NCBI GenBank assembly: GCA_020848455.1
Contig: JADLAB010000369.1
Span: forward strand, 1 to 55,806
Length of the DNA: 55,806 bases
DNA from: Polyangiaceae bacterium
GTDB taxonomy: Bacteria > Myxococcota_A > Polyangia > Polyangiales > Polyangiaceae
Reading direction: 5' to 3'
Both the position numbers and the translations under genes were made by a program. Of the stretch, positions 515-48,826 are shown one piece after another. Under the pieces are notes generated by a model. It saw nothing but the letters and a program-made list of their open reading frames with translations. It ran no database searches and was not told the DNA's origin. Position 1 is the first letter of the stretch. Every line of letters begins with the position of its first letter.

Positions 515-1570
515 TCATCGCGCGGACGGGACCAGGCGCCGCAGGGCGGGGGCGATGTCCCCGAGGCCGAGCACGTGCACGGCCCCGCCTGCCTGGATGG
601 CGGCCTTCGGCATGCCGAACACGACCGAGCTCGCCTCGTCCTGGGCGAGGGTCGTGCCGCCGGCCTGGCGGATCGCGCACAGGCCCCGGGCGCCGTCGCG
701 CCCCATGCCGGTGAGCAGCACGCCGAGCGTCCGGGCGCCGTAGGCCTCGAGCGTCGACTCGAAGAGCACGTCGACCGAGGGGCGGTGCCCGCCCACGGCC
801 GGGCGGCGGTCGAGCTCGACGAAGCCGACGCCGTCCTCGCGGCGCACGACCATGTGGCTGTGGCCGGGCGCGAGCAGCGCCCGTCCCGGGCGCACGAGAT
901 CGCGGTGCGCCGCCTCCTTCACCTCGAGCGCCGACAGCTCGTCGAGGCGGCGCGCGAAGGCCGCCGTGAAGCCCGCCGGCATGTGCTGCACGAGCACGAG
1001 GCCCGCCGGAAAGTCTGCAGGCAGCCCGCCGAGGATGGCGCGCAGCGCCTCGGTGCCGCCGGTCGAGGCGCCGATCGCCACGACGTCCACCTGGCCCGAG
1101 CGCGGCATCGCCAGCCGCGCGACCTTGCCGCGCGCCACCGTGGGTGCGGCCCGGCGGCGTCGCGCGAGCGCCTTCACCTTGGCCACGAGCACGGGCGCCA
1201 CCTGCGCGATCGACTCCGAGGTGAGCCCGCCCGGCTTCTGCACGAAGTCGAGCGCGCCCTCCTCGAGCGCCTCGAGGGTGCGCGCGGCGCCGGCCGCGGA
1301 GTGGGCGCTCAGCAGGATGACGGGTCGCGGGGCGCGCTGCATCAGCTGGCGCAGCGTCGCGAGCCCGTCGAGGCCGGGCATCTCGAGATCGAGCGTCACG
1401 AGGTCCGGGTCGAAGCGCTCGAGCTTGCGCAGCGCGATGGCGCCGCTCGCGGCCGTGTCGACGCGCCCGATCTCCGGGTCCTCGCCGAGGATGCGCTCGA
1501 GGCTGCGGCGCACGACGGCGGAGTCGTCGACGACGAGCACGCGGATCCGATCGTCCTCGGCGCCGCTCAC
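515..1570 (-). CDS. cheB: CheB: receiver-controlled chemoreceptor methylesterase/glutamine deamidase
   Basis: 351 residues from a GTG that overlaps the cheD stop (GTGA), so translation is probably coupled. Residues 8-125 form a receiver domain with the acidic pair D15/D16, phosphoacceptor D61 in LVTLDLEMPG and conserved K112. A short linker leads to the methylesterase domain (about 160-350) with the catalytic triad S169 (IGASTGG), H196 (LVQHMPAGF) and D292 (TGMGRDG). The family removes methyl groups from receptor glutamates when phosphorylated by CheA. It is the last gene of the chemosensory operon. No methyl-accepting receptor gene is in the operon, so its substrates must be encoded elsewhere. 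Longer reading upstream of the GTG would only be out-of-frame cheD sequence. Confidence 0.95.
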   Translation of the reverse strand: MSGAEDDRIRVLVVDDSAVVRRSLERILGEDPEIGRVDTAASGAIALRKLERFDPDLVTLDLEMPGLDGLATLRQLMQRAPRPVILLSAHSAAGAARTLEALEEGALDFVQKPGGLTSESIAQVAPVLVAKVKALARRRRAAPTVARGKVARLAMPRSGQVDVVAIGASTGGTEALRAILGGLPADFPAGLVLVQHMPAGFTAAFARRLDELSALEVKEAAHRDLVRPGRALLAPGHSHMVVRREDGVGFVELDRRPAVGGHRPSVDVLFESTLEAYGARTLGVLLTGMGRDGARGLCAIRQAGGTTLAQDEASSVVFGMPKAAIQAGGAVHVLGLGDIAPALRRLVPSAR

Positions 1571-2655
1571 GTCGGCCTCGGCAGCATGGTGACGGTGAGC
1601 TCGAGCGAGGCGAGATCGAGGCACACCTTGCGGGCCACCCGTCCGCCCGTGTCCTCGCTCGCGAGCTCGATGCCCGCGGCCCCGAGCGCGCTCCGCGCCA
1701 CGCGGGCGTTGTCGGCGGGGATGCGCCACAGCCCCTCCTCGTTCGCGAACAGCGTGTTGCAGCCGCCCACGAGGCGCGCCTCGAGTCGCTGCAGGCGTGC
1801 GCCGGCACGCCCGAGGGCGTCGGAGAGCGCGCCGACCGCCGTGTCGGCGTACTTCGCGGGCTCGTTCGCGCCCTCCGGGCTGCGCGGCAGCATCACGTGC
1901 GCCAGACCGCCGATGCGCAGCGCCCGGTCGAACACGCACACCGCCACGCACGAGCCGAGGACGGCGACCAGGCGCGTGGGCGCCTCGGCCACGTGGAGCC
2001 GACCCATCTCGACGAACACGCTGCCGCCCGTTTCCGGCGCCCCGACCGGCAGACCGGCCGCCGCGGCGCGCCCGACGGGCAGGCTCGGCGCCGGCACGAG
2101 CGGGCCTTGGCCGGGTGCGCCCGGGACCTCGCCCGCGCGCCGGGGCCGCCCTCTGCCGCGCACGCCCGTCTCGACGCGCACGGTACCGGCAGCGGTGTCG
2201 ACGCGCACCGTGCGCAGCACGTCGCCTCCGACGTCGCTGCGGGCGAGCCGCGCCCCGTGCCGCTCGAGGACCGCCGCGACCCTGGCGACCGCGCGCGCGG
2301 CGAGCAGCTGGCGCTGCGTCGGGGTGAGCGTGCCGAGCACGTGAGCGCCACCGACGAGCTCGTAGCGCAGCTGGCGCGGGTCGCCGCCGAGCGCCGCGAG
2401 GGCCGCGAGGAACTTGGCGAGCGGCAGGGGGGCCACGTCGCGGTGCCCCGGACCGCCCTCGGCCGGATCGAGCTCGAAGTGCACGAGCCCCCCGACGTGC
2501 CGGCCCGAGACCGAGACCGCCAGGGCGTAGCCCGTCGCCACGACCGTGTAGAGCTCGGCGGGCGCTGCCACGACCTTCATCATGCCGAGCGCGAGCGCAT
2601 GCCGCGCCACGGCCGGGCGCTCGTCCGCCGGCGAGGGGCGCTGCGGCCCCGTCAT
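1567..2655 (-). CDS. cheD: Tandem CheD: degenerate N-terminal CheD domain fused to an intact CheD domain
   Basis: 362 residues, about twice a normal CheD, starting at an ATG that overlaps the upstream cheA stop (ATGA). The C-terminal copy (about 212-362) has the catalytic cysteine C236 in LGSCVAVCVFD and histidine H253 in GGLAHVMLP, 17 residues apart as in the family. The N-terminal copy (about 20-165) aligns without gaps over this core (ATGYALAV...GGLVHFELD): H59 is kept but the cysteine position is G42, so it should be unable to deamidate. CheD normally deamidates receptor glutamines and can bind CheC. A Gly/Pro/Ala-rich linker (about 166-210) joins the copies. The dead half may be a docking or regulatory module (inference). 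It sits between cheA and cheB. Confidence 0.9.
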   Translation of the reverse strand: MTGPQRPSPADERPAVARHALALGMMKVVAAPAELYTVVATGYALAVSVSGRHVGGLVHFELDPAEGGPGHRDVAPLPLAKFLAALAALGGDPRQLRYELVGGAHVLGTLTPTQRQLLAARAVARVAAVLERHGARLARSDVGGDVLRTVRVDTAAGTVRVETGVRGRGRPRRAGEVPGAPGQGPLVPAPSLPVGRAAAAGLPVGAPETGGSVFVEMGRLHVAEAPTRLVAVLGSCVAVCVFDRALRIGGLAHVMLPRSPEGANEPAKYADTAVGALSDALGRAGARLQRLEARLVGGCNTLFANEEGLWRIPADNARVARSALGAAGIELASEDTGGRVARKVCLDLASLELTVTMLPRPT

Positions 2656-3869
2656 CGCCGGACCTCGTCCGGCGCGAGCAGGGGCCGCAACGACGCGCTG
2701 TCGAGCGCGAGCACGACCCCGCCCTCGTCGCTCGTGCTGGTCCCGATGAGACCCGGCAGCCGCCGCAGTCGCCGGCCGAGCGCGCGCAGCACGAGCTTGC
2801 GGCGCTCGAGCACGGCGTCGACCGCGATGGCCCACGGCCCGTCCTCGTGCGCCAGGACCACGAGGTAGCGGGCCTCGGCGCCCGCGGCGTCGCCCCTCGT
2901 GTCCCCGCCGAGGAGCGCCGCGAGCGAGGCGACGGCGAGGGACTTGCCGCGCCACGGCCAGCGCGCCTCGGCCCCGGCGAGCGGCGCTGCCGAGGGCCCT
3001 CGGCACAGCACCTCCTCGACGTGCTCGAGCGGCAGCGCGTAGCACTCGTCGCCGGCCTGCACGAGCAGGGCGTCGACGACGACGCTCGTGAGCGGCAGGA
3101 CGATGCGGCCCACGCATCCGCGCCCGACCGCCGAGCCGAGCTCGACCCGGCCGCCGAGTGCCGCCACGCGGTCGCGGGCGGCGTCGAGCCCTACGCCGCG
3201 CCCGGAGACGCTCCCCACGGTGTCGCGCGTCGAGAACCCCGGGTGGAACACGAGCTCGAGCGTCGCCGCGTCGTCGAGCGCCGCCGCTTCGGCCGCGCCG
3301 AGGAGCCCGAGCGCGACCGCCTTCTGGCGCACGCGCTCGAGGTCGACGCCCGCGCCGTCGTCCTCGACCTCGACCACGAGGCGGGTGCCCTCGCGCCGCG
3401 CGGCGAGCCCGAGCCGGCCGGCCTCGGGCTTGCCCGCGCGCCGGCGCGCTTCCGGGGTCTCGATGCCGTGGTCGAGCGCGTTGCGCACGAGGTGCACGAG
3501 CGGCTCGGCGAGCTCGTCGATGGTGCGCTTGTCCACCTCCGTGTGCTCGCCCGCGAGCGTGAGCACGACCCGCTTGCCCATGCCCCGGGCGAGGTCCTCG
3601 ACCAGCCCTGCGAAGCGCCCGAAGAGCGACGCCACGCGCACGATGCGCGCGCGGCTCACCCGCGTCTGCAGCTCGTCGCAGAGCCGCCCGAGCTCCTCGC
3701 TGGCCTCCACGAGCGCGTTCACCTGCTTGTTGTGGCCGTGGCGCCGGCGCGCCGCGTGTGCCACCGCCGACAGCGCCGCACCCGCGCCCGCGACCTCGCT
3801 CGTCAGGTGCAGCAGCCGGTCGAGGCGCGCCCCGTCGATGCGCACGAAGCCTCCGTCCCGGCTACTCAT
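2652..3869 (-). CDS. cheA: CheA-type histidine kinase lacking the HPt (P1) domain
   Basis: 405 residues. It starts directly in the P3 dimerisation helices (about 10-95), followed by a complete HATPase (P4): N box VHLVRNALDHG with N130 and H134, G1 box DDGAGVD (170-176), F-box-like FHPGFSTRD and G2 box GRGVGLDA (223-230). A CheW-like P5 domain follows (about 265-395). No HPt histidine domain and no P2 are present, and the gene start is fixed by an 8-base overlap with cheR. The protein can therefore probably bind and hydrolyse ATP but needs another protein for its phosphoacceptor; the HPt-bearing CheA-like protein at 5176-7038 in the same operon is the obvious partner. CheA4 of Rhodobacter sphaeroides is a known precedent for this architecture. 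Confidence 0.92.
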   Translation of the reverse strand: MSSRDGGFVRIDGARLDRLLHLTSEVAGAGAALSAVAHAARRRHGHNKQVNALVEASEELGRLCDELQTRVSRARIVRVASLFGRFAGLVEDLARGMGKRVVLTLAGEHTEVDKRTIDELAEPLVHLVRNALDHGIETPEARRRAGKPEAGRLGLAARREGTRLVVEVEDDGAGVDLERVRQKAVALGLLGAAEAAALDDAATLELVFHPGFSTRDTVGSVSGRGVGLDAARDRVAALGGRVELGSAVGRGCVGRIVLPLTSVVVDALLVQAGDECYALPLEHVEEVLCRGPSAAPLAGAEARWPWRGKSLAVASLAALLGGDTRGDAAGAEARYLVVLAHEDGPWAIAVDAVLERRKLVLRALGRRLRRLPGLIGTSTSDEGGVVLALDSASLRPLLAPDEVRR

Positions 3870-4746
3870 GGACCTCCGCGACCTTGCGGTGGAGCAGGGT
3901 CTTGCCCACGCGGTGCGGGGCGAAGCGGCGCGGCAGGCCGTGCAGGCTCTCGGCCGCGCCGACGACGAGCACGCCGTCGGGCGCGAGCGACTCCCAGAAC
4001 ACCTGCAGCAGGTGCACGCGCACCTCGCGCTCGAGGTACATCATGGCGTTGCGACAGAAGACGACGTCGCAGGCGGGGCGCAGCGCGCGCGCCTCGGCGA
4101 AGTTCTGCCACGCGAAGGTGACGTGCTGCCGCAGCGCCGCCCGGATCTGCAGCGTCTGCGGCCCGAGGTCCACGTGGCGCACGAGGTGGCGCGCCGGCAC
4201 CTCGACCCGGCTCGCGAGGGGGTAGATCCCGGCGCGGCCCGTGGCGAGCGCGTGCTCGTCGATGTCGGTCCCGACGACCTCGTAGCGGTAGCCCGGTCGG
4301 CGCTGCAGGAAGCCGTCGACGACCATCGCCAGGCTGTAGGCCTCCTGGCCGGTCGAGCAGCCCGCGCTCCACAGGCGCAGCGTGCGCGGCCGCCGCTCCG
4401 CGCCGGTGAGCTCCGGCAGGACGGCCTGCTCGAGCGCCGCGAAGTGCTGCTCCTCGCGGAAGAAGTGCGTCTCGTGCGTCGTCACCACCGACCAGAAGTG
4501 CCCGAGCTCGCGCGCCTCGCCCTCGGCGGTGCGCAGGTAGCGGTAGTAGGCCTGGAAGCTCGGCAGCCCGAGCGCCTGCAGGCGGCGCCCGAGGCGGTTC
4601 TGGAGCAGCAGCTGCTTCGACTCGGCGACTCGGACGCCGGAGCGCCGGGAGATGAGCTCCCGGAACAGCGCGAAGTCGCTCGCGCCGAGCACGGGCGCGC
4701 CCGCGCTAGCGCTCGGGCCCGGGCTCGGTCGCTTGGTCGGGTCCAT
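3862..4746 (-). CDS. cheR: CheR: SAM-dependent chemoreceptor glutamate methyltransferase
   Basis: 294 residues. An N-terminal helical CheR_N domain (about 20-85) precedes the Rossmann methyltransferase domain with TTHETHFFRE, the SAM-binding segment LWSAGCSTGQEAYSLAM and the later NFAEAR and VFCRNAMMYL motifs typical of CheR. It transfers methyl groups from S-adenosylmethionine to receptor glutamates, opposing CheB. No TPR or pentapeptide-tether extension is seen. The first 20 residues are Pro/Ser/Ala-rich and overlap the cheW gene by 41 bases, so a start slightly downstream is possible. It overlaps the following cheA by 8 bases. Confidence 0.94.
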   Translation of the reverse strand: MDPTKRPSPGPSASAGAPVLGASDFALFRELISRRSGVRVAESKQLLLQNRLGRRLQALGLPSFQAYYRYLRTAEGEARELGHFWSVVTTHETHFFREEQHFAALEQAVLPELTGAERRPRTLRLWSAGCSTGQEAYSLAMVVDGFLQRRPGYRYEVVGTDIDEHALATGRAGIYPLASRVEVPARHLVRHVDLGPQTLQIRAALRQHVTFAWQNFAEARALRPACDVVFCRNAMMYLEREVRVHLLQVFWESLAPDGVLVVGAAESLHGLPRRFAPHRVGKTLLHRKVAEVHE

Positions 4747-5179
4747 CGAAGGCCAGGATCCTGTCGAGGTTCGGGAAGTGCAGGACGCGCCCGTCGACCA
4801 CGGCGACGCCGTCCAGGCTCGCCGCGGCCGCGCCCGTCGCGACGGGCGGAGGCGGGCGCACGTCGTCGCGGCAGAGGTGCGTGAGCCGGCCCACGCTCTC
4901 GGCCAGGAGCCCCACCCGCTCGCCGTGACGCTCGACCACGAGCACGCGCGCGTCGGGGCCGAGCTCGGTCGTGCCGAGCCCGAGGCGCGTCGCGAGGTCG
5001 AGCACGGCCGTGACCTCGCCGCGCAGGTTGACGACGCCCCTCACGTGGGCCGGCGCGTGCGGCACGCGCGTGAGGCGCGTGGCGCGCACGAGCTCGCACA
5101 GCTCCCGCGCGGGCAGGGCGTACTCCTCGGCGCCCACGCGGAACGTCACGACCTCGAGCTCGTCCGCCCGGTCCCTCAT
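4706..5179 (-). CDS. cheW: CheW-type coupling protein 1
   Basis: 157 residues forming one CheW-like SH3-pair domain: VTFRVGAEEYALP, VRATRLTRVPHAPAHVRGVVNLRGEVTAVLD (hallmark NLRG) and LGPDARVLVVE, then VGLLAESVGRL. CheW links receptors to CheA in signalling arrays. The ATG overlaps the stop of the HPt-bearing cheA-like gene (ATGA), suggesting coupled synthesis of the two proteins. The tail (about 145-157, DGPDQATEPGPER) overlaps the cheR start. The second CheW of the operon, at 7088, is more divergent. Confidence 0.92.
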   Translation of the reverse strand: MRDRADELEVVTFRVGAEEYALPARELCELVRATRLTRVPHAPAHVRGVVNLRGEVTAVLDLATRLGLGTTELGPDARVLVVERHGERVGLLAESVGRLTHLCRDDVRPPPPVATGAAAASLDGVAVVDGRVLHFPNLDRILAFDGPDQATEPGPER

Positions 5180-7038
5180 GGCGCACCCGAAGGCGCGACG
5201 GCGCGCGCCCGATCGACTGGCCGCGCGCCGTGCGCCAGGCCGATGGCTTGCTCGATCAGGGCCGCGGCGCGGAGCACGAACGCCACCGAGCCGTCGCCGA
5301 GAATGGCGGCGCCCGCGAGCACCGGGTGCCGCAGCACGCGCGCGCCGAGCGGCCGCGCCACCACGTCGCGCACGCCCACGAGCTCGTCGACGAGGAGGCC
5401 GACGGCGCTCGGCGTGGCGTGGAGCACGACGACGTGGCGCGGCGGCCGGCCGTCCCCGTCCCCCGCGCCGCCGAGCAGCTCGGACAGCGCCACGAGGCCG
5501 ACGAGCTCGCCGCCGAGCACGAGCCCGGGGCGCCCCTCGATGGACCTGAGGCTCGCCGCGCTCACGACCAGCGTCTCCTTCACGGCCTCGACGGGCCAGG
5601 CGTAGAGCTCCTCGCCCACCCGCGCGAGCAGCACGCGCGAGATGGCGGTCGTGTGCGGCAGCGACAGCTCGGCGGCGAGCCCGGTGGCGTCGGGCGCGAG
5701 CTCGAGCCGGCCGCCGTGGCGCGCGAGCGCCTGCTGCCACGTGCGCACGAGCTCGGGCGCGGGCTCGTGGGCCGGGCCGCTCACGCGGACGCGGAGCTCG
5801 CGGTCGTGTCGTCGGGCCTCGAGGGTCAGCGTGGCCGCGCTCGTGCCGGCATCGCTCGCGGCGGCGCTCGCCGCGAAGGCGCGCACCAGATCGGCGAGCG
5901 CCCGCTCGAGCGGCTCCGCGAGCGCCAGGTCGATGGCGGTCTCTCCGCCGCGGACCTCGAGCCGGACGGCGCGGGCTCGTCCGCGGGCCGCGTCGCGCGC
6001 CGCGCGCTGGGCGCCTCGCAGCGCGCGCGCCACCGGCACGCGCCGCGCGCCGAGCACGGCCTCCTCGAGCTCCACCGCGAGGTCGCCGAGCCGCGTCGCC
6101 GGGACGAGGAGCTCCGCGGCCGTCTCGCGATCGCCGAGCTCGCGCGCCACGCGCTCGCCGAGCAGCCCGAAGCGATCGCGCGCCAGGCGCAGCTCGCCGA
6201 CCAGGCGCAAGAGCTCGGCGAGCGTCCCGAGCTCGACGCGCACGCCCTGCTCGGACCCCTGCAGCGACCGGACGGCGACCTGGCGCGCGCTCGCGCTCGC
6301 CGCCGGCGCCTCCACGAAGGGCGTCACCACGGCGCCGCCGATGCCGCCGTCCGCGAGCGCGGCCGCGAGCGCGGTCGCGTCGGCGTCGCTCGCGACGAGG
6401 GCGATGAGCTCGCCGAGGGCGCCCACGCGCTCGAGCTCGGAGGCGCCCGGTGTCGTCGCCACGACCGTGCCCACCTTGCGCAGCCGGGCGATGTGCCGCG
6501 TGGCCCACGCGACCGGCTCGTCGGCGGCCGTCACCGGCACGGCCACGCGATGGAAGAGCTGCCCGCGCGCCCGCAGCACGTGCAGGCGCACGCGGTCGTA
6601 CTCGCCGAGCACGAGCTCGGCCCGCGGCGCGGCGCGGGTCGTCGCCTCGGCCGCCGCCGGCACCGCCTGGGCCAGCTCCGCCGCGAGCTCCGTGAGCTCG
6701 GCCGGGACGTGGTCGCAGCGCTCGACGCGTCCGAGCGCGTCGCGCAGGCGCTCGAGCGTGCGACCCACCCGGTCGCACAGCTCCGGCTCCGCCACCTCCG
6801 TCCGCTCGCGCAGCGGCGCCACCATCTGCTCGACGGCGTGGGCCACCTCGGACACGAGGCCGAGACCCGCGATGCCGGCCGCGCCCTTCAGGGTGTGCGC
6901 CGCGCGCATGAGCTCGTCCACCGGACCGCGCGCCCCCGGCTGCTCCTCGGCGTCGAGCAGCGCGGCGTCGAGCCGCTCGAAGAGCTCGCTCGCCTCGTGC
7001 TTGAAGATCTGCAGGAGCTCGTCGTTCTCGTCGGGCAC
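5176..7038 (-). CDS. CheA-like protein with HPt and CheW-like domains but a degenerate ATPase (pseudokinase)
   Basis: 620 residues from a GTG preceded by GAGGGAGA. Residues 5-105 are an HPt (P1) domain with the phosphorylatable H48 in MRAAHTLKGAAG. Residues 140-245 resemble a second small domain of unknown role. P3-like helices lie near 265-350. The region where an HATPase should be (about 360-460) keeps length and some pattern but has lost the catalytic boxes: the N-box segment reads LADLVRAFAASAAAS with no Asn or His, and no DDGAG or GxGxG box is found. A P5 CheW-like domain follows (about 465-600). I read it as a phosphoacceptor partner of the HPt-less CheA encoded two genes downstream, similar in principle to CheA3/CheA4 of Rhodobacter. 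Confidence 0.88.
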   Translation of the reverse strand: MPDENDELLQIFKHEASELFERLDAALLDAEEQPGARGPVDELMRAAHTLKGAAGIAGLGLVSEVAHAVEQMVAPLRERTEVAEPELCDRVGRTLERLRDALGRVERCDHVPAELTELAAELAQAVPAAAEATTRAAPRAELVLGEYDRVRLHVLRARGQLFHRVAVPVTAADEPVAWATRHIARLRKVGTVVATTPGASELERVGALGELIALVASDADATALAAALADGGIGGAVVTPFVEAPAASASARQVAVRSLQGSEQGVRVELGTLAELLRLVGELRLARDRFGLLGERVARELGDRETAAELLVPATRLGDLAVELEEAVLGARRVPVARALRGAQRAARDAARGRARAVRLEVRGGETAIDLALAEPLERALADLVRAFAASAAASDAGTSAATLTLEARRHDRELRVRVSGPAHEPAPELVRTWQQALARHGGRLELAPDATGLAAELSLPHTTAISRVLLARVGEELYAWPVEAVKETLVVSAASLRSIEGRPGLVLGGELVGLVALSELLGGAGDGDGRPPRHVVVLHATPSAVGLLVDELVGVRDVVARPLGARVLRHPVLAGAAILGDGSVAFVLRAAALIEQAIGLAHGARPVDRARAVAPSGAP

Positions 7039-7087: not shown

Positions 7088-7603
7088 TCAGTCATCCGCC
7101 GCGCTCGCCCGCGCGCCGGCCGAGACCGGGCGCGCGGCAGCGAGCTGCCGCCGGAGCTCGGCGAGCGACCGCCGCAGCGTGGCGTCGAAGAGCGCGGTCG
7201 GCTCGAGGTGCAGCATCAGCCGCCCGTCCGGCAGCTCGGACGCGGCCCGCACGGAGCCCGACCGCGCTCCGCGGCCGAGCTCGGGCAGCGGGCGCAGGCT
7301 CGCGGCGGGCACCGCCACGACGCGGCGCACCTCGTCCACCTCGAGGCCCACGAGCGCGCCGTCCACGCGCACGATGAGGGCGCGCGTCGTCGGCCGGCGC
7401 GGGCCGGCGTCGAAGCCGAGGAGCCGACCGAGCGCCACGAGCGGCACGACCTCGTCCCGCATCGTGGCGACCCCGTGCCACGGTGCCGGCAGGCCGGGCG
7501 GCTGCGCCACGGCGTAGTCGGCGACGACCTCGCACAGGCTCGCGAGCGGCAGGGCGCAGGCCTCGCCCGCCACCGTGAACGCGAGGTGCCGGTCGTCGGT
7601 CAC
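7088..7603 (-). CDS. CheW-like coupling protein 2 (divergent)
   Basis: 171 residues from a GTG that overlaps the stop of the upstream GAF gene (GTGA). A single CheW-like domain is visible: LAFTVAGEACALPLASLCEVV, then WHGVATMRDEVVPLVALGRLLG where the NLRG loop is replaced by TMRD, and RALIVRVDGALVGLEVDEVRRV. A 50-residue tail (about 120-171) with a predicted helix, LRRSLAELRRQLAAA, extends beyond the domain. It is presumably an array adaptor for the CheA pair or links the GAF proteins to them (inference). Gap to the next gene is 49 bases. Confidence 0.85.
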   Translation of the reverse strand: MTDDRHLAFTVAGEACALPLASLCEVVADYAVAQPPGLPAPWHGVATMRDEVVPLVALGRLLGFDAGPRRPTTRALIVRVDGALVGLEVDEVRRVVAVPAASLRPLPELGRGARSGSVRAASELPDGRLMLHLEPTALFDATLRRSLAELRRQLAAARPVSAGARASAADD

Positions 7604-8397
7604 GGCGTTCCGACGTGGCCGGCCGGCCCCGGGGGTACTGCGCCGTCCGGGCCGCGCAGGCGCGCGCACTCGAGCGCGCGTGCCGCCTGCGCCCCGAGCA
7701 GCTCGAGGATCTCCCGGTCGACCTCCTCGAGCCCGCGCTTCTGCGGCAACAGCTCGTAGAGCGCGAGCACGCCCGTCGTGCGGCCCCCGAGCTCGAGCGG
7801 CACGCACGCCACGAGCGCGTCGCCCCGCGCGTCCGGCGCCCCCTCGCGCGCGTCGCGCGCCGCGACGTGGAGGCGTCCGGTGCGCAGCACCTCGGCGGCC
7901 ACGCCCGTGCGCGGCGACGGCGCCGTCTCGCCGCCGCCCTCGAGGCCCATGCCGTCGACGAGCTCGAGCCGGGAGCCGTCGGTGCTGAGCTCGTACACGC
8001 CGAAGCGCTCGCAACCGACCAGATTCGCGAGGATCTCGCGCATCGCGGCGCGCACTGCGGCGAGGGTCGTGGCGCCGTGCAGCTGGTAGCTCGCCACGTA
8101 CAGGTGCGCGAGGCTCGCGCTCTCGCGCTCCACCTCGAGGTAGCGCTCGAGGAAGCGCTGGTTGTCCCGCTCCGTCTCGGCCAGCGCGCCCGAGAGCCGT
8201 TCGGCCTCGTGGCGCCGACTGGTGAGCTCGTCCGAGAGGCTGTGGATCTCGGCGCGCAGCTCGGTGTTCTCGCTCTCGAGCAGGACCAGCCGATGGCGCA
8301 GGCGCTCGTTCTCCTCGAGCATCTCGCGCGAGTACTGGCGCGCGGCCTCGGTGACGCGCAGCACGTAGGCCTCGGGCTTGTTGCCTTCGTCGCTCAT
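7600..8397 (-). CDS. Coiled-coil plus GAF sensory protein of the chemosensory operon
   Basis: 265 residues; start ATG preceded by GAGGAG at six bases. Residues 10-95 form a long heptad-rich coiled coil (EMLEENERLRHRLVLLESE, then LRAEIHSLSDEL). Residues about 100-245 form a GAF domain introduced by LAHLYVASYQLHGA and containing CERFGVYEL and ACVPLELGGRTTGVLALYEL. No transmembrane segment, HAMP or MCP signalling hairpin is present, so it is cytoplasmic. It is a paralogue of the GAF protein at 10580, which shares LYVATYQLHA. In an operon without a receptor it is a candidate input or scaffold protein; ligand unknown. Confidence 0.82.
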   Translation of the reverse strand: MSDEGNKPEAYVLRVTEAARQYSREMLEENERLRHRLVLLESENTELRAEIHSLSDELTSRRHEAERLSGALAETERDNQRFLERYLEVERESASLAHLYVASYQLHGATTLAAVRAAMREILANLVGCERFGVYELSTDGSRLELVDGMGLEGGGETAPSPRTGVAAEVLRTGRLHVAARDAREGAPDARGDALVACVPLELGGRTTGVLALYELLPQKRGLEEVDREILELLGAQAARALECARLRGPDGAVPPGPAGHVGTP

Positions 8398-8407
8398 GCA
8401 GCGCTCC

Positions 8408-8779
8408 TCACTCGGCGAGGAAGCTCCGGATCTTCGACAGGAGCTCGACGGTGTTGATGGGCTTGGTCACGTAGTCGTTGCAGCCCGCCTCGAAGCCGCG
8501 CCGGACGTTGTCCTCCTCGCCGCGCGTCGTGACCATGATGATCGGCGTGTCGCGCGTCGCGTCCTCGGCGCGCAGCCGCGCCACGGCCTCGAAGCCGTTG
8601 AGCTCCGGCATCACGACGTCCATGAGGATGAGATCCGGCCGCTCGGCGAGCGCCTTCGTGACGGCCTCGGCCCCGTTGCGCGCCAGCACCAGCTGGTAGC
8701 CGCCGCGCCCCAGGATGAGCCTGCCCATGTGGAGCGCGGTCTCCGAGTCGTCCACCAGCAGCACCTTCTTGCCTGCCAT
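8408..8779 (-). CDS. CheY-like single-domain response regulator
   Basis: 123 residues, a stand-alone receiver domain: acidic pair D10/D11 in LLVDDSETALHM, phosphoacceptor D54 in LILMDVVMPELNG, the Thr in IIMVTTRGE and the conserved Lys in DYVTKPI. The start is fixed by GGAGGAG just upstream. There is no output domain, so it acts by binding a partner, probably as the diffusible output or phosphate sink of the operon's CheA pair. It resembles the CheY/PilG/PilH class; the sequence alone does not tell which target it controls. Confidence 0.93.
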   Translation of the reverse strand: MAGKKVLLVDDSETALHMGRLILGRGGYQLVLARNGAEAVTKALAERPDLILMDVVMPELNGFEAVARLRAEDATRDTPIIMVTTRGEEDNVRRGFEAGCNDYVTKPINTVELLSKIRSFLAE

Positions 8780-8823: not shown

Positions 8824-10560
8824 TCAGGCGACGCGGCCCTCACCGCGCCGCAGCAGCTCGTTCTCGTACGCCATGCCCATCTGAGACACCGCGAGCTCCA
8901 GGAAGTCGATCTCCTCGATCGGCAGCTCCTTGTCGCCGTTGTCCGCGTAGACGACCGCGATGACGCGGTCGCCGCTGATGACGGGGAAGAGCGCACAGCG
9001 GCGCGCTCGCGGCATGCCGAGCCGCTCGCCGAGGACGGCCGGCAGCGCGGCCTCGTCCCAGTCGAGCGCGCGCGCCTGCCCGTCGAGGACGCACTCGTAG
9101 AGGGCGCCCGAGCGACCCAGCGGCACGCGCAGACCGCGCATGCGCTCCGCGAGCCGCGCGCCGTTGTCCGCCTGGCCGAAGCCGCCGTGCACCCACAGCT
9201 CCGGCGGGCGGTGCAGCAGGAACAGCGCGCGCTCGACGGTGTCCGAGATGAGGTTCAGCATGCTGAGCGACACCGTCGCCGACATGAGCCCCGTGCGGAT
9301 CTCGCGCGTCAGGCGGCGCAGCTTCGCGAAGCCGGCGGCCAGCCCCTCGGCGTACAGCTGGCCGGCGGCGCAGGCGCCCTGGTGGCGCGTGACCGCGGCG
9401 AGGCAGGCCACGACGGCGTCGGGCTCGGGCCCCACGACGGCGGTCGCGCCGGCGTCGTAGCTCGCCGCGATGTCGGCGGCGCCGTCCACGACCGCCACGA
9501 GGGGCGCCGTCGGCTGAGCGGCCCGCAGGCTCTCGAGCATCGCCCGCGCCACCATGCCGCCGCGCAGATCGACGAGCGACGCCGCCGGGTGCGCGCCCTC
9601 GGCGCCAGGGTCGGAGTCCGCGGGGTCCGCCGGGTACAGGTGGATCCCCTGGGCCGCGGCCCGGCCGACCAGCACCTCGACGAAGCTGCGGTCGGTCGAC
9701 AGCGCCCGGATGGTCGGGCGGTCCCGAACGCCGGAGTCGGCGCGCAGCCTCGGGCCGGCGCTCGGAGCGCTCACGGGGGTGCTGCGCGCGAGCCGCTCGG
9801 TCGGTCGGCCGCCGCGCGCGCGCGCCGCAGGGTCGGCGGCGGGACGGCTGCTGCCCGCGGCGGGCGGCGTGGGTCGCGACCCAGCCTCGGGCGCCGAGTG
9901 CGAAGCGCGCGGCGGACCGGGCGCCGGGCGCGGGGCTCCGGCCCTGCGGCTGCTCGGCACCGGAGCCGGCGGCACCGAAAGGGGCGCGCTCACGGGGCCG
10001 CGGCGCGACACGCCCGCCTCGTCGTCGCGGTTGCGCTCGTCGAACAGGCGCGCCGCCTCGAGCAGCAAGTGCTGGGTGTGGACGTTGAGCTCGGTCAGCT
10101 CCGAGGGGCTCACCGCGAGGTCGTCGGGGGGCACGTGGTCGGCGAGCGCGAAGTGGAACTCGCCGCGGCGCCACTCGAGCAGCTCGTAGATCGTGTGGGC
10201 GACCTGCTCGGCGAAGGCCGACAGGACGTCCTCTTTCTTCGCGAGGCCGAGCCGCACCAGGATCGCCCCGATGGGCTCGTGACGCCCCTCGGTGCGCTGC
10301 ACCGCGAGGGCCCGTTCGAGCCCCGCGACCTCGAGGACGCCGCGCTGGATGAGGTGCTGGCCGAGCGGCAGCGAGCGCGGCGCGCGGGCGCCCACGATCT
10401 TGCCGAGGTGCACGAGGAGCTCGCCCCGCGCGTCGTCGCGCTCGAGGCTGAGCGTGCCGGTGCGCCCCGAGAGCTGGATGAACTGCAGGATATCGACGAG
10501 CGGCACGTCCTCCAGGCGTCCCGACAATCCCGCGTGGCTCGCTGTGCTCTCGACGGTCAT
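8824..10560 (-). CDS. PATAN (DUF4388) - linker - receiver-like - GAF protein
   Basis: 578 residues. An N-terminal PATAN/DUF4388 domain (about 10-165; LEDVPLVDILQFIQLSGRTGTL and GRIVGA-type LGKIVGARAPRS) is followed by a Pro/Ala/Arg-rich linker (about 170-275). Next comes a domain of about 115 residues with receiver-like alternation (RPTIRALSTDRSFVEVLV, SLVDLRGGMVARAML, PLVAVVDGAA, GATAVVGPEP) that lacks the acidic pair and the Lys of a working receiver. A C-terminal GAF-like domain (about 415-575) ends in VIAVVYADNGDKELPIEEIDFLELAVSQ. PATAN domains occur next to CheY-like proteins in PatA/PilG pathways. Seen here just upstream of the operon's cheY; precise role unknown. Confidence 0.82.
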   Translation of the reverse strand: MTVESTASHAGLSGRLEDVPLVDILQFIQLSGRTGTLSLERDDARGELLVHLGKIVGARAPRSLPLGQHLIQRGVLEVAGLERALAVQRTEGRHEPIGAILVRLGLAKKEDVLSAFAEQVAHTIYELLEWRRGEFHFALADHVPPDDLAVSPSELTELNVHTQHLLLEAARLFDERNRDDEAGVSRRGPVSAPLSVPPAPVPSSRRAGAPRPAPGPPRASHSAPEAGSRPTPPAAGSSRPAADPAARARGGRPTERLARSTPVSAPSAGPRLRADSGVRDRPTIRALSTDRSFVEVLVGRAAAQGIHLYPADPADSDPGAEGAHPAASLVDLRGGMVARAMLESLRAAQPTAPLVAVVDGAADIAASYDAGATAVVGPEPDAVVACLAAVTRHQGACAAGQLYAEGLAAGFAKLRRLTREIRTGLMSATVSLSMLNLISDTVERALFLLHRPPELWVHGGFGQADNGARLAERMRGLRVPLGRSGALYECVLDGQARALDWDEAALPAVLGERLGMPRARRCALFPVISGDRVIAVVYADNGDKELPIEEIDFLELAVSQMGMAYENELLRRGEGRVA

Positions 10561-35236: not shown

Positions 35237-35542
35237 ATGGCTGCTAAGAAGACTGGGAAAAAGGCCGGCGCAAAGAAGGCGGGCGCGAAGAAGGCGGGCA
35301 AGAAGGCGGGCGCGAAGAAGGCCGGCAAGAAGAAGGCTGGCAAGAAGGCTGCCTCAAAGAAGGCCGGCAAGAAGACCGCCGCCAAGAAGCCAGCTAAGAA
35401 GGCTGCCGCGAAGAAGACCGCCAAGAAGAAGGCGGCCCGCAAGCCGGCGAAGAGCGCCGCTGCGCCAGCAGAAGGTTCTTCACCAGCTGCAGCAGAGCTG
35501 CCCATGCCGCCGAACTTCGGCGGCGGGGACGAATCCGAGTAG
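35237..35542 (+). CDS. Lysine/alanine-rich histone H1-like DNA-binding protein
   Basis: 101 residues. Residues 2-75 are repeats of KKAG, KKAGKKAGA and AAKKTAKK, with about 40 percent lysine; the last 25 residues are neutral to acidic (AAAELPMPPNFGGGDESE). This composition matches histone H1 C-terminal tails and bacterial H1-like proteins (Hc1 type, AlgP-like). It should bind DNA or RNA non-specifically and compact it. Start fixed by AGGAGG seven bases upstream of the ATG; a perfect strong site. The AAG-rich repeats lower its GC and codons strongly favour AAG. Possible phase or length variation through the repeats. No enzymatic part. Confidence 0.85.
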   Translation: MAAKKTGKKAGAKKAGAKKAGKKAGAKKAGKKKAGKKAASKKAGKKTAAKKPAKKAAAKKTAKKKAARKPAKSAAAPAEGSSPAAAELPMPPNFGGGDESE

Positions 35543-38356: not shown

Positions 38357-38728
38357 ATGGCGGCCCCGGTGGCGGACGTGACGGTGGTGGCGGCGGCGCG
38401 CGCCACGTCGGAGCGCCTGTGCCACTACCTCGAGGAGGCCGGGCTGCGCTGCATCTCGGCCGCGCGGCTGGCGGACGCCACGGGGGCCGCCCACCGGGCG
38501 CGGGCCTACGTGCTCATGGCGGACGACTTCGACGCCGGCGCGGTGGCCGCCGCCCTGCACACCTGGGGCGGCCGCCGGCCGCCCCCGCGGGTCGTCGTCG
38601 TCCAGGGCACCGGGCCGGCGGTGGCCCCCGAGGGCGGCGCCGAGGTGGTCTTCCTGCCGCGGCCGGCCTTCAGCTGGACCATCCTCGACGCCATCGTGGG
38701 GCGGGCGACGGGGGGCAGCGCATGCTGA
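38357..38728 (+). CDS. Small receiver-like protein, first gene of the Ehr operon
   Basis: 123 residues from the ATG at 38357 (start uncertain because of its distance to the promoter; GTG codons at 38369 and 38378 are alternatives). The pattern [68 protein letters not shown] follows the strand-helix order of a receiver domain, but the acidic pair and a clear phospho-Asp are missing, so I call it a pseudo-receiver. It overlaps the next gene by seven bases. Could be a sensor or brake for the sensor-less activator next door (inference). Confidence 0.5.
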
Positions 38729-39432
38729 TCGGCGCGCTCGAAGTGGCGGAGCTCCTCGGCGTGCCCGAGGCGACGGTGTTCGCCTGGACGCGGCGGGGAG
38801 AGATCCCGTTCACCCGCGTGCAGGAGCAGTATCGCTTCAACCGCGCCGAGATCCTCGCGTGGGCGACGGCGCGCGGGATGGCGATCTCGCCCCGGCTCTT
38901 CCCGGCCGACGCCGCCGCGCCCGCGGCCGGCACGAGCCTCGCCGAGGCCCTGCGCGAGGGTGGCGTGCACGCGGACGTGCACGGGGCGGACCGCGCCACG
39001 GTGATGCGCGCGCTCGCGGCGCTCCTGCCCCTGCCGCCGGGCACCGACCGCGAGCTCGTGTGCGAGTTCCTGCTCGCGAGCGAGGCGCTCGGCGCGACCG
39101 GCATCGGCGACGGCATCGCGCTGCCGCACGTCGCGAGCCCGATCGTGCTGCGGGTGCCACGGCCGTTCGTGACCCTGTGCTACCTCGCCACGCCGGTCGA
39201 CTTCGGGGCGCACGACGGCCGGCCGGTGACGACGCTGTTCTCGATCGTGGCCCCGCACAACCGGATCCACCTCGAGCTCTTGGCGCGCGTCGCGGCCGCG
39301 CTCCACGACCCGCCCTTCCGCGCGGCGCTCGCCCGGCGCGCGCCCGCTGCCGAGATCCTCGCCGCGGCGCGCCTGCTCGACGCCGCCGCGCTGCCCGGTC
39401 GGCCCACGCCACCTTCCGAGCCCGCGTACTGA
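38722..39432 (+). CDS. Helix-turn-helix fused to a PTS EIIA (PtsN-type) domain
   Basis: 236 residues. Residues 1-50 are an excisionase/MerR-like winged helix (ALEVAELLGVPEATVFAWTRRGEIPF, then YRFNRAEILAWA). Residues about 75-230 form a PTS EIIA type-2 domain with the phosphorylatable H136 in GIGDGIALPHVASP and typical VTTLFSIVAPHNRIHLELLARVA. EIIA-Ntr proteins sense the nitrogen PTS phosphorylation state and regulate K+ transport or sigma factors. Here the fused HTH suggests DNA binding under phosphorylation control. Its place between the sigma-54 promoter and the Ehr subunits suggests a regulator of this operon. Confidence 0.85.
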   Translation: MLIGALEVAELLGVPEATVFAWTRRGEIPFTRVQEQYRFNRAEILAWATARGMAISPRLFPADAAAPAAGTSLAEALREGGVHADVHGADRATVMRALAALLPLPPGTDRELVCEFLLASEALGATGIGDGIALPHVASPIVLRVPRPFVTLCYLATPVDFGAHDGRPVTTLFSIVAPHNRIHLELLARVAAALHDPPFRAALARRAPAAEILAAARLLDAAALPGRPTPPSEPAY

Positions 39433-39491
39433 GCCAGTCCCGTGCCCGTCGAAGCCCCACCGCCACCCACGCCCAAGCTGGAGCACCTCGC

Positions 39492-41468
39492 ATGCGCTGG
39501 CTGATCCCCTGTGCCATCGCGCTCACCGCGCTGAGCGGTGTGGCCGGCCTCCTGCCAGCCCGGCGCGCCCGGCTCGGCGAGCTCCTCGCCGTCGGGCTCG
39601 TGGTGCTGGGCGCCGCGCTCGGCCTGGCGGGGAGCGTGGTCGGCTTCGTCGCGTCCGACGCGCTGCGCATCGATCTGCCCTGGTCCCTGCCGGGCGCCCG
39701 GCTGCTCGTGCGCGTCGACGCGCTGTCGTCGATGTTCCTCGCGCCGCTCTTCTTCGTCTCGGCCGCCGGCGCCGTGTACGGGCTGTCGTACTGGCCCGTG
39801 CGGGAGCACCCGCGCGATGCCCGGGGCGTGCGGCTCTACTACGGCCTCACGGTGGCCGGGCTCGCGACGGTGCTCTGTGCCGCGAACGCCGTCCTGTTCC
39901 TCGTCGGCTGGGAGGTCATGGCGCTCGGGGCGTTCATGCTGGTCGGCACCGAGCACGAGCGCGCCGAGGTGCGCGGTGCGAGCCTCGTCTACCTGGTCTC
40001 GACCCGCGCCGGGACGCTGTGCCTGTTCGGGTTCTTCGGTCTGCTCTACGCCATCACCGGCAGCCTCGACTTCGACCTCGGCGCGGTGGCCGGGCGTGCC
40101 TCGGCGACCGAGCTCCACGGCCTGTTCGTCCTCGCCCTCTGTGGCTTCGGTCTCAAGGCCGGGCTCATGCCCCTGCACGTGTGGCTGCCCGGCGCACACG
40201 CCAACGCCCCGAGCCACGTCTCCGCCCTGATGAGCGGCGTGCTCCTCAAGATGGGCGTCTACGGGCTGGTGCGCACGACGGCGTTCTTCCCGACGCCGCC
40301 GCTGTGGTGGGGTGCGGCCCTGGTCGGCTGCGGCGTCGTGTCGGGGATCCTCGGCGTGGCCTTCGCGCTCGGCCAGCACGACCTCAAGCGCCTGCTCGCG
40401 TACCACAGCGTCGAGAACATCGGCATCATCGCCCTCGGCCTCGGGCTGGCGCTCGTCGGGCGCTCGCTCGGCGCACCCGCGCTCGTCGGTCTGGGGCTCG
40501 CCGGCGCCCTGCTCCACGTGTGGAATCACGGGCTCTTCAAGGCGCTCCTGTTCCTGGCGGCCGGTGCCGTGGTGCACGCCACGGGCACGCGCGAGATCGA
40601 CGCGCTCGGCGGCCTCGGCAAGCGCATGCCGAAGACCGCGCTCGCGTTCCTCGTCGGCTCGGTCGCGATCTGCGGGCTGCCGCCTCTCAACGGCTTCGTG
40701 AGCGAGCTGCTCGTCTACCTCGGCCTCTTCGAGGCCGCCGCGTCGCCCGACGCCCCGGCCTGGCTCGTCGGTGCGCTCGGCGCGCCGGCGCTCGCGCTCA
40801 TCGGCGCGCTCGCCGTCGCCTGCTTCGTGAAGGTCTACGGCGTCGTGTTCCTCGGCGAGCCGCGCAGCGCCAAGGTGGACAAGGCCCACGAGGTCGACAA
40901 GCTCATGACCGGGCCGATGGCGGCGCTCGGCGCGGCGTGCGCGCTCATCGGGCTCGCGCCGGCGCTCGTGATGCCGGCGCTCGCGCGGGCCGCGCACACC
41001 TGGGCGCCCGAGCTGGCCGACGAAGTGGGCCCGGTCGCGTCGCTCGCGTGGCTGTCGCTCGCCAACGGCCTCTTGCTCGGGCTCGTGCTCGTCGCCGCGG
41101 CGTGGCTCGCCTGGCGCGCGCGCGCGGCCGCGACCGTGCGCGACGTGCCGACCTGGGACTGCGGCTACGCCGCCCCGACCCCGCGCATGCAGTACACGGC
41201 CTCGTCCTTCGCGGCGACGCTCGTCGGCTTCTTCGCCTTCGCGCTCCGCCCGTCGCGCTTCCGGCCCGAGCTCGTCGGTCCGTTCCCGCAGCGCGGAACG
41301 CTGTTCACGAGCCTGCCCGACGTCGTGCTCGGCCGGCTGATCCTGCCGGCGTTCGCGCTCATCGGCCCGCTGCTCGCACGGCTGCGCAAGCTCACGCAGG
41401 GCAGCGTGCACACCTACCTCCTCTACATGCTCGTCGCCGTCGTCGCGGCGCTCCTCGTGTGGCGCTGA
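39492..41468 (+). CDS. hyfB: HyfB-like antiporter-type membrane subunit (NuoL/M/N-related)
   Basis: 658 residues with about 15 membrane helices. Conserved proton-channel features are visible: VGWEVMALGAFMLVGTE, GFGLKAGLMPLHVWLPGAHANAPSHVSALMSG, AYHSVENIGIIALG and HVWNHGLFKALLFLAAGAVVHATGTR. The C-terminal extension WDCGYAAPTPRMQYTASSFA and QGSVHTYLLYML is typical of HyfB/HycC. GGAG precedes the ATG at about eight bases. It would translocate H+ or Na+ driven by the soluble part. Its stop overlaps the next start by one base (TGATG). Gene order from here matches hyfB-hycD-hycP-hycQ-hycE clusters. Confidence 0.92.
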   Translation: MRWLIPCAIALTALSGVAGLLPARRARLGELLAVGLVVLGAALGLAGSVVGFVASDALRIDLPWSLPGARLLVRVDALSSMFLAPLFFVSAAGAVYGLSYWPVREHPRDARGVRLYYGLTVAGLATVLCAANAVLFLVGWEVMALGAFMLVGTEHERAEVRGASLVYLVSTRAGTLCLFGFFGLLYAITGSLDFDLGAVAGRASATELHGLFVLALCGFGLKAGLMPLHVWLPGAHANAPSHVSALMSGVLLKMGVYGLVRTTAFFPTPPLWWGAALVGCGVVSGILGVAFALGQHDLKRLLAYHSVENIGIIALGLGLALVGRSLGAPALVGLGLAGALLHVWNHGLFKALLFLAAGAVVHATGTREIDALGGLGKRMPKTALAFLVGSVAICGLPPLNGFVSELLVYLGLFEAAASPDAPAWLVGALGAPALALIGALAVACFVKVYGVVFLGEPRSAKVDKAHEVDKLMTGPMAALGAACALIGLAPALVMPALARAAHTWAPELADEVGPVASLAWLSLANGLLLGLVLVAAAWLAWRARAAATVRDVPTWDCGYAAPTPRMQYTASSFAATLVGFFAFALRPSRFRPELVGPFPQRGTLFTSLPDVVLGRLILPAFALIGPLLARLRKLTQGSVHTYLLYMLVAVVAALLVWR

Positions 41469-42373
41469 TGCACTACCTCGTCCACGTGCTGCTCGTCCTC
41501 GCGCTGCCGCCGCTCCTGCTCGGCATCGCGAACCGCGTGAAGGCGCTGTTCGCGGGCCGCCGCGGGCCGCCGGTGCTGCAGCTCTACTTCGACCTCGCGA
41601 AGCTCGCGCGGAAGAGCACGGTACAGAGTCGCACCACGAGCTTCGTGTTCCGCGCCGGACCGGTGGTGGCACTGGCGACCACGGCGTGCGCCGCGATGCT
41701 CGTGCCCCTCGGCGCCCACAAGGCGCCGCTGTCCTTCGGCGGCGACCTCGTGTTCTTCGCGTACCTGTTCGCCCTCGGCCGCTTCTTCACGGTGGCGGCG
41801 GCGCTCGACACCGGCTCGGCCTTCGAGGGCATGGGCGGCGCGCGCGAGGTCACCTTCGGGGCGCTCGCCGAGCCGGCGCTGTTCTTCGGCCTGCTCGTGC
41901 TCACGCGCCTCGGGGGCGCCGTCCGCTTCGCCGTCGTGCTCGGCCCCGGGCTCGCCGACCACTGGGTCGAGGCCGCGCCGTCGCTCGTGCTCGTCGCGGT
42001 GAGCCTGTTCGTCGTGCTCCTGTCCGAGACCTGTCGCGTGCCCTTCGACGACCCCAACACCCATCTCGAGCTCACCATGATCCACGAGGTCATGGTGCTC
42101 GATCACGGCGGGCCGGCGCTCGGCATGATCCTCTACGGCGCCGCCATGAAGCTGTTCGTGCTCGGGGCAGTGGTGGTCGGCGTCGCGCTGCCGGCGAGCT
42201 CGGGCAACGCGTGGCTCGACTGGCTCCTGTTCCTCGGCGGCATGCTCGGGTGCACGGTGCTCGTCGGGGTCGTCGAGTCGATCATGGCCCGCCTGAAGCT
42301 CGTGGCCGTCCCCAAGCTGCTCGTCACCGCCTGCCTGCTGTCGGCGGTCGGGCTCGTGCTGCTGGTCCGCTAG
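41468..42373 (+). CDS. hyfC: HyfC/HycD-like membrane subunit (NuoH-related)
   Basis: 301 residues, eight predicted helices. Family signatures: GIANRVKALFAGRRGPPVLQLYFDLAKLARK, the E/R-rich quinone-pocket-type loop GMGGAREVTFGALAEPALFF, SETCRVPFDDPNTHLELTMIHEVM and the terminal helix. This subunit forms the interface between membrane arm and the NuoB/D-like pair. The DDPNTHLELTMIHE loop is the hallmark of group 4 hydrogenase and Ehr complexes. Confidence 0.93.
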   Translation: MHYLVHVLLVLALPPLLLGIANRVKALFAGRRGPPVLQLYFDLAKLARKSTVQSRTTSFVFRAGPVVALATTACAAMLVPLGAHKAPLSFGGDLVFFAYLFALGRFFTVAAALDTGSAFEGMGGAREVTFGALAEPALFFGLLVLTRLGGAVRFAVVLGPGLADHWVEAAPSLVLVAVSLFVVLLSETCRVPFDDPNTHLELTMIHEVMVLDHGGPALGMILYGAAMKLFVLGAVVVGVALPASSGNAWLDWLLFLGGMLGCTVLVGVVESIMARLKLVAVPKLLVTACLLSAVGLVLLVR

Positions 42374-42381
42374 AGGAGCCC

Positions 42382-43022
42382 ATGTCCGCGCTCGCCTCGC
42401 CACTGCTCGTCGTCGTCCTGCTCATCAATCTGTTCCTGCTCGGCACGAGCCGGGTGCGCGCGGCCATCACCGGGGCGGCCGCCCAGGGCGTGCTGCTCGG
42501 CGTGCTCGCGCTCGTCATCGACGACGCGCTCTCCGGCAGCCACATCGCCGTCGCGGCCGGCGCCATCGTGCTGAAGGGGATAGCGTTCCCGGCCCTGCTC
42601 GCGCGCGCCATCCGCGACCTCGCGGTGCGCCGCGAGATCGAGCCGCTCATCGGGCTCGTGCCGAGCCTGCTCCTCGGCGCCATCGGCACGGCGGCGTCGC
42701 TCCTGTTCGCCAGCTCGCTGCCACTCGCCCCGGCGCACGAGGGCTCGCTCGTCGTCCCGGGCGCTCTCGCGACCGTGTTCACGGGCTTCATGCTGCTCAC
42801 CACCCGTCGCAAGGCCATCACGCAGGTCGTGGGCTACCTCGTGCTCGAGAACGGCCTGTTCATCATGGGGCTCGGGCTGCTCGAGGCCATGCCGTTCCTG
42901 GTGGAGGTGGGCATCCTGCTCGATCTCTTCGTCGGCATCTTCGTGATGGGCATCATCATCAACCACATGCGGCGCGAGTTCGGGTCGATCGACACCGAGC
43001 GGCTCACGAGCCTGAGGGAGTG

Positions 43023-43023
<1 letters not shown>
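42382..43023 (+). CDS. hyfE: HyfE/HycP-like small membrane subunit (NuoK-related)
   Basis: 213 residues with six or seven helices; GAGGAG precedes the ATG. Conserved features: ITGAAAQGVLLGVLAL, AIVLKGIAFPALLARAI, and the charged VVGYLVLENGLFIMGLGLLEAMPFLVEVGILLDLFVGIFVMGI-like helix pair (the acidic residues E and D lie within the membrane). The gene ends in NHMRREFGSIDTERLTSLRE. NuoK-like subunits supply a proton path between the antiporter subunits and the NuoH-like subunit. Confidence 0.92.
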
Positions 43024-44557
<1,534 letters not shown>

Positions 44558-44561
<4 letters not shown>

Positions 44562-46078
44562 GCGAGCCCTTCGTCTCCGCCAACGGCGAGGCCTTCGACT
44601 GGAGCGCCGTCCCGCAGTTGCCGTTCGAGCGCTTCGCCGACGGCCTGCTCGGCGCGCTCGGCGCCGGGCAACGCGCCGCCGCGTTCTTCGGCGTCGCCAC
44701 CGGCGCCGGCACGGAGCTCGTCGCCGTGCTCGCGAGCGAGCGCGACGGCCTGCTGCGCTGGAGTCGGACGCTCGTGGCGGGCTCGAGCTTCCCAGCCTTG
44801 ACCCCGCACGCGCCCGAGCTCCACCTGTTCGAGCGCGAGATCGCCGAGCAGCACGGGCTCCGGCCCGAGGGCCACCCGTGGTCGAAGCCGGTGCGCTTCG
44901 TGGCGACCACGCAAAGGCATCGATCGCCCGCGGAGCCGGCGTCGCGCCCCGCGCCGCCCGAGGTCGGCGTGACCGATTTCTTCCGCGTCGAGGGCCACGA
45001 GGTGCACGAGGTGGCGGTCGGCCCCGTGCACGCCGGCGTGATCGAGCCGGGGCACTTTCGCTTCCAGTGCCACGGCGAGGAGGTGCTGCACCTCGAGATC
45101 TCGCTCGGCTACCAGCACCGCGGCGTCGAGCGTGCGCTCGCGGCCGGACCGGACAAGCGCGGCCCCCACTACGCCGAGACGCTCGCCGGTGACACGACCG
45201 TGGGTCACGCCACGGCCTACTGCCAGGTGCTCGAGGCGCTCGGGGGCGTGCGCGTGCCGGCGCGCGCGCAGGCCCTGCGCGGCGTCGCGCTCGAGCTCGA
45301 GCGCATCGCGAACCACGTCGGCGATCTGGGGGCCCTGGCAGGCGACGTCGCCTACCTGCCCACGGCCTCCTTCTGCGGTCGGCTGCGCGGCGAGTTCCTG
45401 AACCTCACGGCCGAGCTCTGTGGCAGTCGCTTCGGTCGAGGGCTCGTGCGGCCCGGGGGCGTGCGCTTCGACGTGCCCGCACCGCTCGGGCGCAGCGTGC
45501 TTTCGCGCCTCGACACGGCGCTCGGCGAGGTGAACGACGCGGTCGGCCTGCTCATGGATGCGCCGAGCGTCCAGGCGCGCTTCGAGGAAACGGGGCGCGT
45601 GTCGGCGGCCACCGCGAGCTCGATCGGCCTGGTGGGGCCCGCGGCCCGGGCCTCCGGTCTGCCGCGCGACGCGCGCCACGACTTCCCCCACGGCGTGTAC
45701 CGCTTCCACCAGCTGCCGGTCACGGTGTGGCACACGGGCGACGTGTTCGCGCGCGCCCACGTGCGGCGCAAGGAGGTGGAGCGGTCGGGTACCTTCGTGC
45801 GGCGGCAGCTCGAGGGTCTGCCCGGCGGTGCGCTCGAGAGCGCGCCCGCCGCGCCGCGGCCCGGTCAGGCCTGTGCGGTGCTCGTCGAGGGCTGGCGCGG
45901 CGAGCTGTGCCACGTGGCGCTCACCGACCTTCGCGGGCGCTTCTCGACCTACAAGGTCGTCGACCCCTCGTTCCACAACTGGCTCGGGCTGGCGCTCGCG
46001 CTGCGCGGCCAGCCCATCTCGGACTTCCCGCTGTGCAACAAGAGCTTCAACCTCTCCTACTGCGGCTTCGACCTGTGA
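44558..46078 (+). CDS. NuoC/NuoD-like large subunit, hydrogenase-like but lacking nickel ligands
   Basis: 506 residues: an N-terminal NuoC/HycE-like domain (about 30-125, FEREIAEQHGLRPEGHP) fused to a NuoD-like domain. The L1 hydrogenase motif, normally with two cysteines, reads ETLAGDTTVGHA (207-218): the cysteine positions are A210 and T213. The end is FPLCNKSFNLSYCGFDL, with C493 and C502 in place of a standard DPCxxC. Typical NuoD-like text YQHRGVERAL and ERIANHVGDLGALAGDV is kept. It should not bind a NiFe centre and belongs to the Ehr group, in which the electron donor/acceptor is unknown. Overlaps hyfF by ATGA. Confidence 0.93.
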
Positions 46079-46085
46079 GGACCCG

Positions 46086-46865: not shown

Positions 46866-46873
46866 GCGCCCCG

Positions 46874-48826
<1,953 letters not shown>

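Follow-up and report, generated by a model that had tools for sequence, protein, structure and literature searches.

Two genes of a single che cluster in a Polyangiaceae bacterium most probably encode one CheA activity that is split over two proteins, of which the shorter would phosphorylate the HPt domain of the longer in trans. The long CheA-like protein (620 aa, GTG start; 5176..7038, minus strand) possesses P1 and P5 and, judged by its motifs, no functional P4, while the short one (405 aa; 2652..3869, minus strand) comprises P3, a P4 with an intact ATP site and P5, is devoid of P1 and P2, and is encoded in the same operon. The set of P1, P3, P4 and P5 in one chain that makes up a canonical CheA is found in neither protein, as neither has all four in functional form. 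Positions refer throughout to the window, i.e. the whole stretch of 55,806 nucleotides analysed here (contig JADLAB010000369.1), for which a myxobacterial host, as assumed in the original prediction, is supported.

Organisation of the che cluster

The cluster lies entirely on the minus strand. At its head stands the gene of a DUF4388-GAF protein (8824..10560; PF14332, PF13185), followed by a cheY-like gene for a single-domain response regulator (8408..8779; PF00072, 8e-28; 99% identity with its copy in the sister genome), a coiled-coil and GAF protein between cheY and cheW (7600..8397; PF13185), and a first cheW upstream of the long CheA (7088..7603; PF01584, 5.7e-24). After the long CheA come a second cheW (4706..5179; PF01584, 5.9e-31), the methyltransferase gene cheR (3862..4746; PF01739, 5.5e-50), the short CheA, a tandem cheD with two CheD domains per protein (1567..2655; two stretches of PF03975) and cheB with receiver and methylesterase domains (515..1570; PF00072, PF01339). 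From the long CheA to cheB all junctions overlap: by ATGA between long CheA and cheW, by 41 nt between cheW and cheR, by 8 nt between cheR and short CheA, by ATGA between short CheA and cheD, and by GTGA between cheD and cheB. Judging from these overlapping reading frames, the genes of this stretch are probably co-transcribed. The operon contains no other Hpt gene, and genome-wide there are only four Hpt matches, two of them within other CheAs; an MCP or other receptor gene is likewise absent from the operon.

The whole cluster is also present, with the same layout, in Myxococcales bacterium NC_groundwater_1660 (JACRDA010000309.1; hereafter the sister genome), the only further representative of the genus in the genome sets searched, which accords, like the overlapping frames, with the earlier assignment of both CheA genes to one operon. 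The long proteins of the two genomes are 87% and the short proteins 88% identical. Since the pair and its lesions recur in a second genome, chance or an assembly error does not account for them.

Some further features of the window were recorded. The N-terminal domain of the tandem CheD (1567-2655, minus strand) is the weaker of the two (PF03975, 1e-10 when scanned alone). Frames at 38500-46900 on the plus strand resemble, by eye, a membrane-bound group 4 hydrogenase or formate-hydrogenlyase-type complex, with proton-pump-like subunits, a large and a small subunit and a ferredoxin. A tandem repeat array at 35246-35453 is built of units like AAGAAGGCCGGC, which, if read in that frame, would encode repeats rich in Lys, Ala and Gly, similar to a histone H1-type tail.

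Domains and ATP sites of the two proteins

In the long protein, Pfam recognises Hpt at residues 7-100 (1.6e-17), H-kinase_dim at 264-329 (1.2e-5) and CheW at 469-597 (5e-20), and reports no HATPase_c. The HPt domain (P1; 6739..7020; PF01627) includes the phospho-accepting His48 (at ~6895-6897) in the motif AAHTLKG. It is followed by what is probably a divergent P2, the response-regulator docking domain, at residues ~145-243 (6310..6606): a sub-threshold P2 match is obtained with the orthologue only (PF07194, E 0.0064), and the region has a beta-alpha-beta-beta-alpha-beta order in a low-confidence model. The P3 dimerisation domain (6052..6249; PF02895) is modelled as a long helical hairpin with high pLDDT, and the CheW-like P5 (PF01584) occupies 5248..5634. 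Between them lies a pseudo-P4 (residues 336-464; 5647..6033), which is predicted to keep a GHKL/HATPase fold while lacking the N, G1, F and G2 boxes and the ATP lid. The P3 domain and the probable P2 supplement the original description of this protein.

For a comparison of the motifs, both proteins were aligned with 61 further CheAs from the class; numbering follows the short protein. The residues H126, N130, H134, D170, D171, G172 and G174, together with G223, R224, G225 and G227 of the G2 box, do not vary among the 61 CheAs and the short protein, whereas each of these 11 invariant ATP-site residues is substituted or deleted in the long one. Asp or Ala stands at H126 and Ala at N130, the G1 motif reads SGPAHEP, and the segment that follows G1, with the F and G2 boxes and the ATP lid, is deleted; two further alignments agree with this. 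The alignment thus agrees with the original prediction, according to which this protein keeps H48 and has lost its N, G1 and G2 boxes. To judge from the missing motifs, its P4 would no longer bind ATP. A divergent HATPase concealed in the long protein was considered and ruled out: neither Pfam nor NCBIfam nor a PDB sequence search with residues 331-441 returned a match for that region, and the model represents a relic without ATP site. The Pfam scan does detect Hpt, HATPase_c and CheW in the other two CheAs of the genome, so the missing Hpt and HATPase_c matches are not an artefact of detection at 75% G+C.

The structure model of the P3-P4 fragment (residues 262-464; mean pLDDT 84) matches the ATP-binding domain of Thermotoga CheA (1i58_B; Z 17.6, rmsd 2.5 over 129 residues), a result to be read in the light of an underlying alignment of five rows, the intact paralogue among them, which may bias the model towards the CheA fold. 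Its remaining resemblance to a CheA P4 suggests that this domain was gutted, not removed. The full-length model of the long protein is poor (mean pLDDT 47), and Foldseek matches obtained with it are a hint only. The P4 of the long protein would rank as a clean pseudo-ATPase, its predicted fold being retained and all nucleotide-contact motifs lost.

The short protein is covered by H-kinase_dim (residues 9-72), HATPase_c (122-261, 4e-14) and CheW (267-394), without a Pfam match to Hpt, and it matches CheA P3-P4-P5 structures over its whole length (8c5v, 1.3e-64). Its P4 (3084..3644; PF02518) retains H126, N130, DDGAG, GFST and GRGVGLD, and its CheW-like P5 lies at 2688..3071 (PF01584, 3.4e-16). 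Pfam and the motif table are in line with the initial description of this protein as keeping N130, G1 and G2 while lacking P1 and P2, and the CheW-like P5 expected in both proteins was found in both. An overlooked N-terminal HPt on the short gene was excluded, as the frame upstream (462 aa from stop to stop) falls inside cheR.

At position 252, in the G3 region of P4, both short proteins have Cys, versus Thr or Ser in 61 of 61 other CheAs, so that full kinase activity is uncertain. This replacement, and an operon without a receptor gene, would fit a short protein that is array-structural or an inactive kinase, in a system that signals without phosphotransfer. We nevertheless give this explanation very little credence, as the H, N, G1, F and G2 residues are all intact, CheY is 99% identical between the species and CheB is retained, and we continue to regard the short protein as the kinase half of a split CheA.

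Conservation, origin and genomic context

Between the two species the HPt of the long protein is 95% identical. For dN/dS we obtained 0.20 (HPt), 0.26 (pseudo-P4) and 0.39 (P4 of the short protein); coming from one genome pair and a simple counting method, these values support constraint and are no fine measurement. At the level of sequence comparison, they support purifying selection on the gutted P4 as well as on the HPt. Long and short protein share ~31% identity, and in trees on P3-P5 and on P3+P5, calculated without CheA4 or full CheA3 sequences, both are placed on very long branches; their sisterhood is unsupported and is not rejected by the AU test (p 0.22). A duplication followed by complementary loss is a plausible origin of the pair, and the same has been proposed for CheA3/CheA4 of Rhodobacter (Berry et al. 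2023, PMC10782961). The P1 of the long protein matches that of CheA3 (3kyi) at 6.4e-6, i.e. more weakly than it does the P1 of Thermotoga CheA (2e-7).

The very long branch of the long protein and the large deletions in its ATP site could also be signs of a decaying CheA, which is heading for loss because it is redundant beside a second kinase, and whose HPt carries little traffic. Such decay is highly improbable given the conservation of the HPt and the dN/dS values of HPt and gutted P4 alike; moreover, the short kinase would have no acceptor in the operon if the long protein were lost. A retained acceptor half of a split CheA is the reading that we follow.

The long protein was searched against 97 relatives and 379 genomes of the phylum, and the short protein against 318 genomes of the class, these sets being overlapping. 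Beyond the genus, the stronger matches that were listed consisted of CheAs of the usual, greater length and of frames truncated at a contig end, with no split pair among them. The other short CheA frames checked in Myxococcota (in the genomes G199, G410, G065 and G011) were dismissed, as they end at or begin near a contig edge, and a search for split relatives on plasmids gave only partial, distant CheA matches. The arrangement is thus seen here in a single genus, in a phylum other than that of Rhodobacter.

The metagenome-assembled genome that contains the window encodes two further, complete CheAs (contigs C577 and C443), each with its own HPt and with a receptor on the same contig. Two of its three MCP genes are located on these contigs and the third on a contig without che genes (C183). 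The counterpart of this orphan MCP in the sister genome (contig C172) has at least 719 aa, and the 14 kb of that contig that were examined contain no che genes; on position only, the orphan is a candidate input receptor of the split CheA. The nearest response regulator to the split CheA is the CheY of the operon. The sister genome has, in addition, an extra che cluster (contig C491) with DUF4388, CheY, CheA-like, CheW, CheR, CheB and MCP, which has no counterpart among the CheA and MCP matches of the window's genome.

Myxobacterial Che systems are known to cross-talk, and one of the two complete CheAs (C577 or C443) might use the long protein as its phospho-acceptor; the short protein would then have a different target or do no more than modulate the array. 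This alternative appears unlikely: both complete CheAs have an HPt and a receptor of their own, and the long and short proteins share an operon of overlapping genes and have been kept together in both genomes. A transfer within the pair is the reading developed below.

Proposed mechanism and known split kinases

From domain content, lost motifs, conserved operon and predicted fold we infer a phosphotransfer between the two proteins, their co-assembly and their targets as follows. The short protein (P3-P4-P5) would bind ATP and phosphorylate His48 on the HPt of the long protein, which would then hand the phosphate to the CheY and CheB of the operon. As each protein has its own P5, both are probably located in one receptor/CheW array, either as neighbours or as mixed P3 dimers, the latter being conceivable because both retain P3. 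The pseudo-P4, with ATP binding lost and the fold kept, would probably be a structural piece of the array. Phosphorylation of His48 by the short protein is to be expected from the Rhodobacter precedent, in which the P1 of CheA3 receives its phosphate from CheA4 and each protein is inactive on its own (PMC3591291, PMC6829392, PMC3964821). CheA3 and CheA4 are reported side by side in one array in the Rhodobacter literature, and work on arrays suggests that neighbouring P5 domains gather such proteins. Long-short heterodimers, as the original prediction allows, and neighbouring homodimers would both be compatible with the present data.

The closest known system is CheA3/CheA4 (CheOp3) of Rhodobacter (Cereibacter) sphaeroides, where, as here, two CheA-like genes of one operon encode a protein with P1, degenerate P3/P4 and P5 and a protein with P3-P4-P5 only (PMC10782961). 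The original prediction named this pair as a precedent, which it is, but the claimed contrast, of a short CheA3 and a pseudo-ATPase region retained only in the present protein, is wrong, because the published analysis of CheA3 finds the same kind of relic: its P1 and P5 are separated by 794 residues holding degenerate HPts, P2, P3 and a HATPase_c with missing helices (Berry et al. 2023, PMC10782961). CheA3 differs in this long middle part, in its extra degenerate HPts and in its CheY6 phosphatase activity, whereas the present protein has 620 aa, one HPt and a P3 that Pfam recognises. Furthermore, CheOp3 encodes the soluble receptor TlpT (PMC3964821), whereas the present operon encodes CheD and no receptor.

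A survey of CheA architectures calls the Rhodobacter pair a unique case of a CheA divided between two such proteins (Berry et al. 2023, PMC10782961), Hamer et al. 2010 (PMC2829493) name a small number of further species that have either CheA half, and 11 split CheAs have been counted versus 470 complete ones (PMC3591291). The incomplete CheAs of Hamer et al. likewise have P3-P4-P5 without P1, and Caldicellulosiruptor also has a P1-P5 protein; they are likened to the present proteins by description, not by sequence, and their authors show neither pairing nor function (PMC2829493). HPt and kinase are also found on separate proteins of one operon in the separate-HPt CheAs (Berry et al. 2023, PMC10782961). 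In these, however, the HPt is described as having a gene of its own beside the rest of CheA, whereas the present HPt domain belongs to a protein that is itself a CheA of full size and includes P3, a relic P4 and P5. Since CheA3 also keeps a P3/HATPase relic, and other halves have already been listed, we regard the present pair as probably a further instance of a known arrangement, independently evolved, with a more compact acceptor and a different operon. A more far-reaching proposal, which we put forward tentatively and consider rather doubtful, is that in this independently evolved split CheA the gutted P4 is maintained as a non-catalytic part of the mixed dimer or array, and that activity needs two subunits with different P5 inputs, which would give a switch-like (ultrasensitive or bistable) output.

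The split-CheA arrangement is known experimentally mainly from Rhodobacter. If true, the occurrence in Myxococcota of a second pair, whose P4 is a relic of the same kind, would mean that evolution can arrive at this arrangement repeatedly, and it would provide an independent system in which to test the ultrasensitive or bistable responses that have been proposed for split kinases (PMC3591291).
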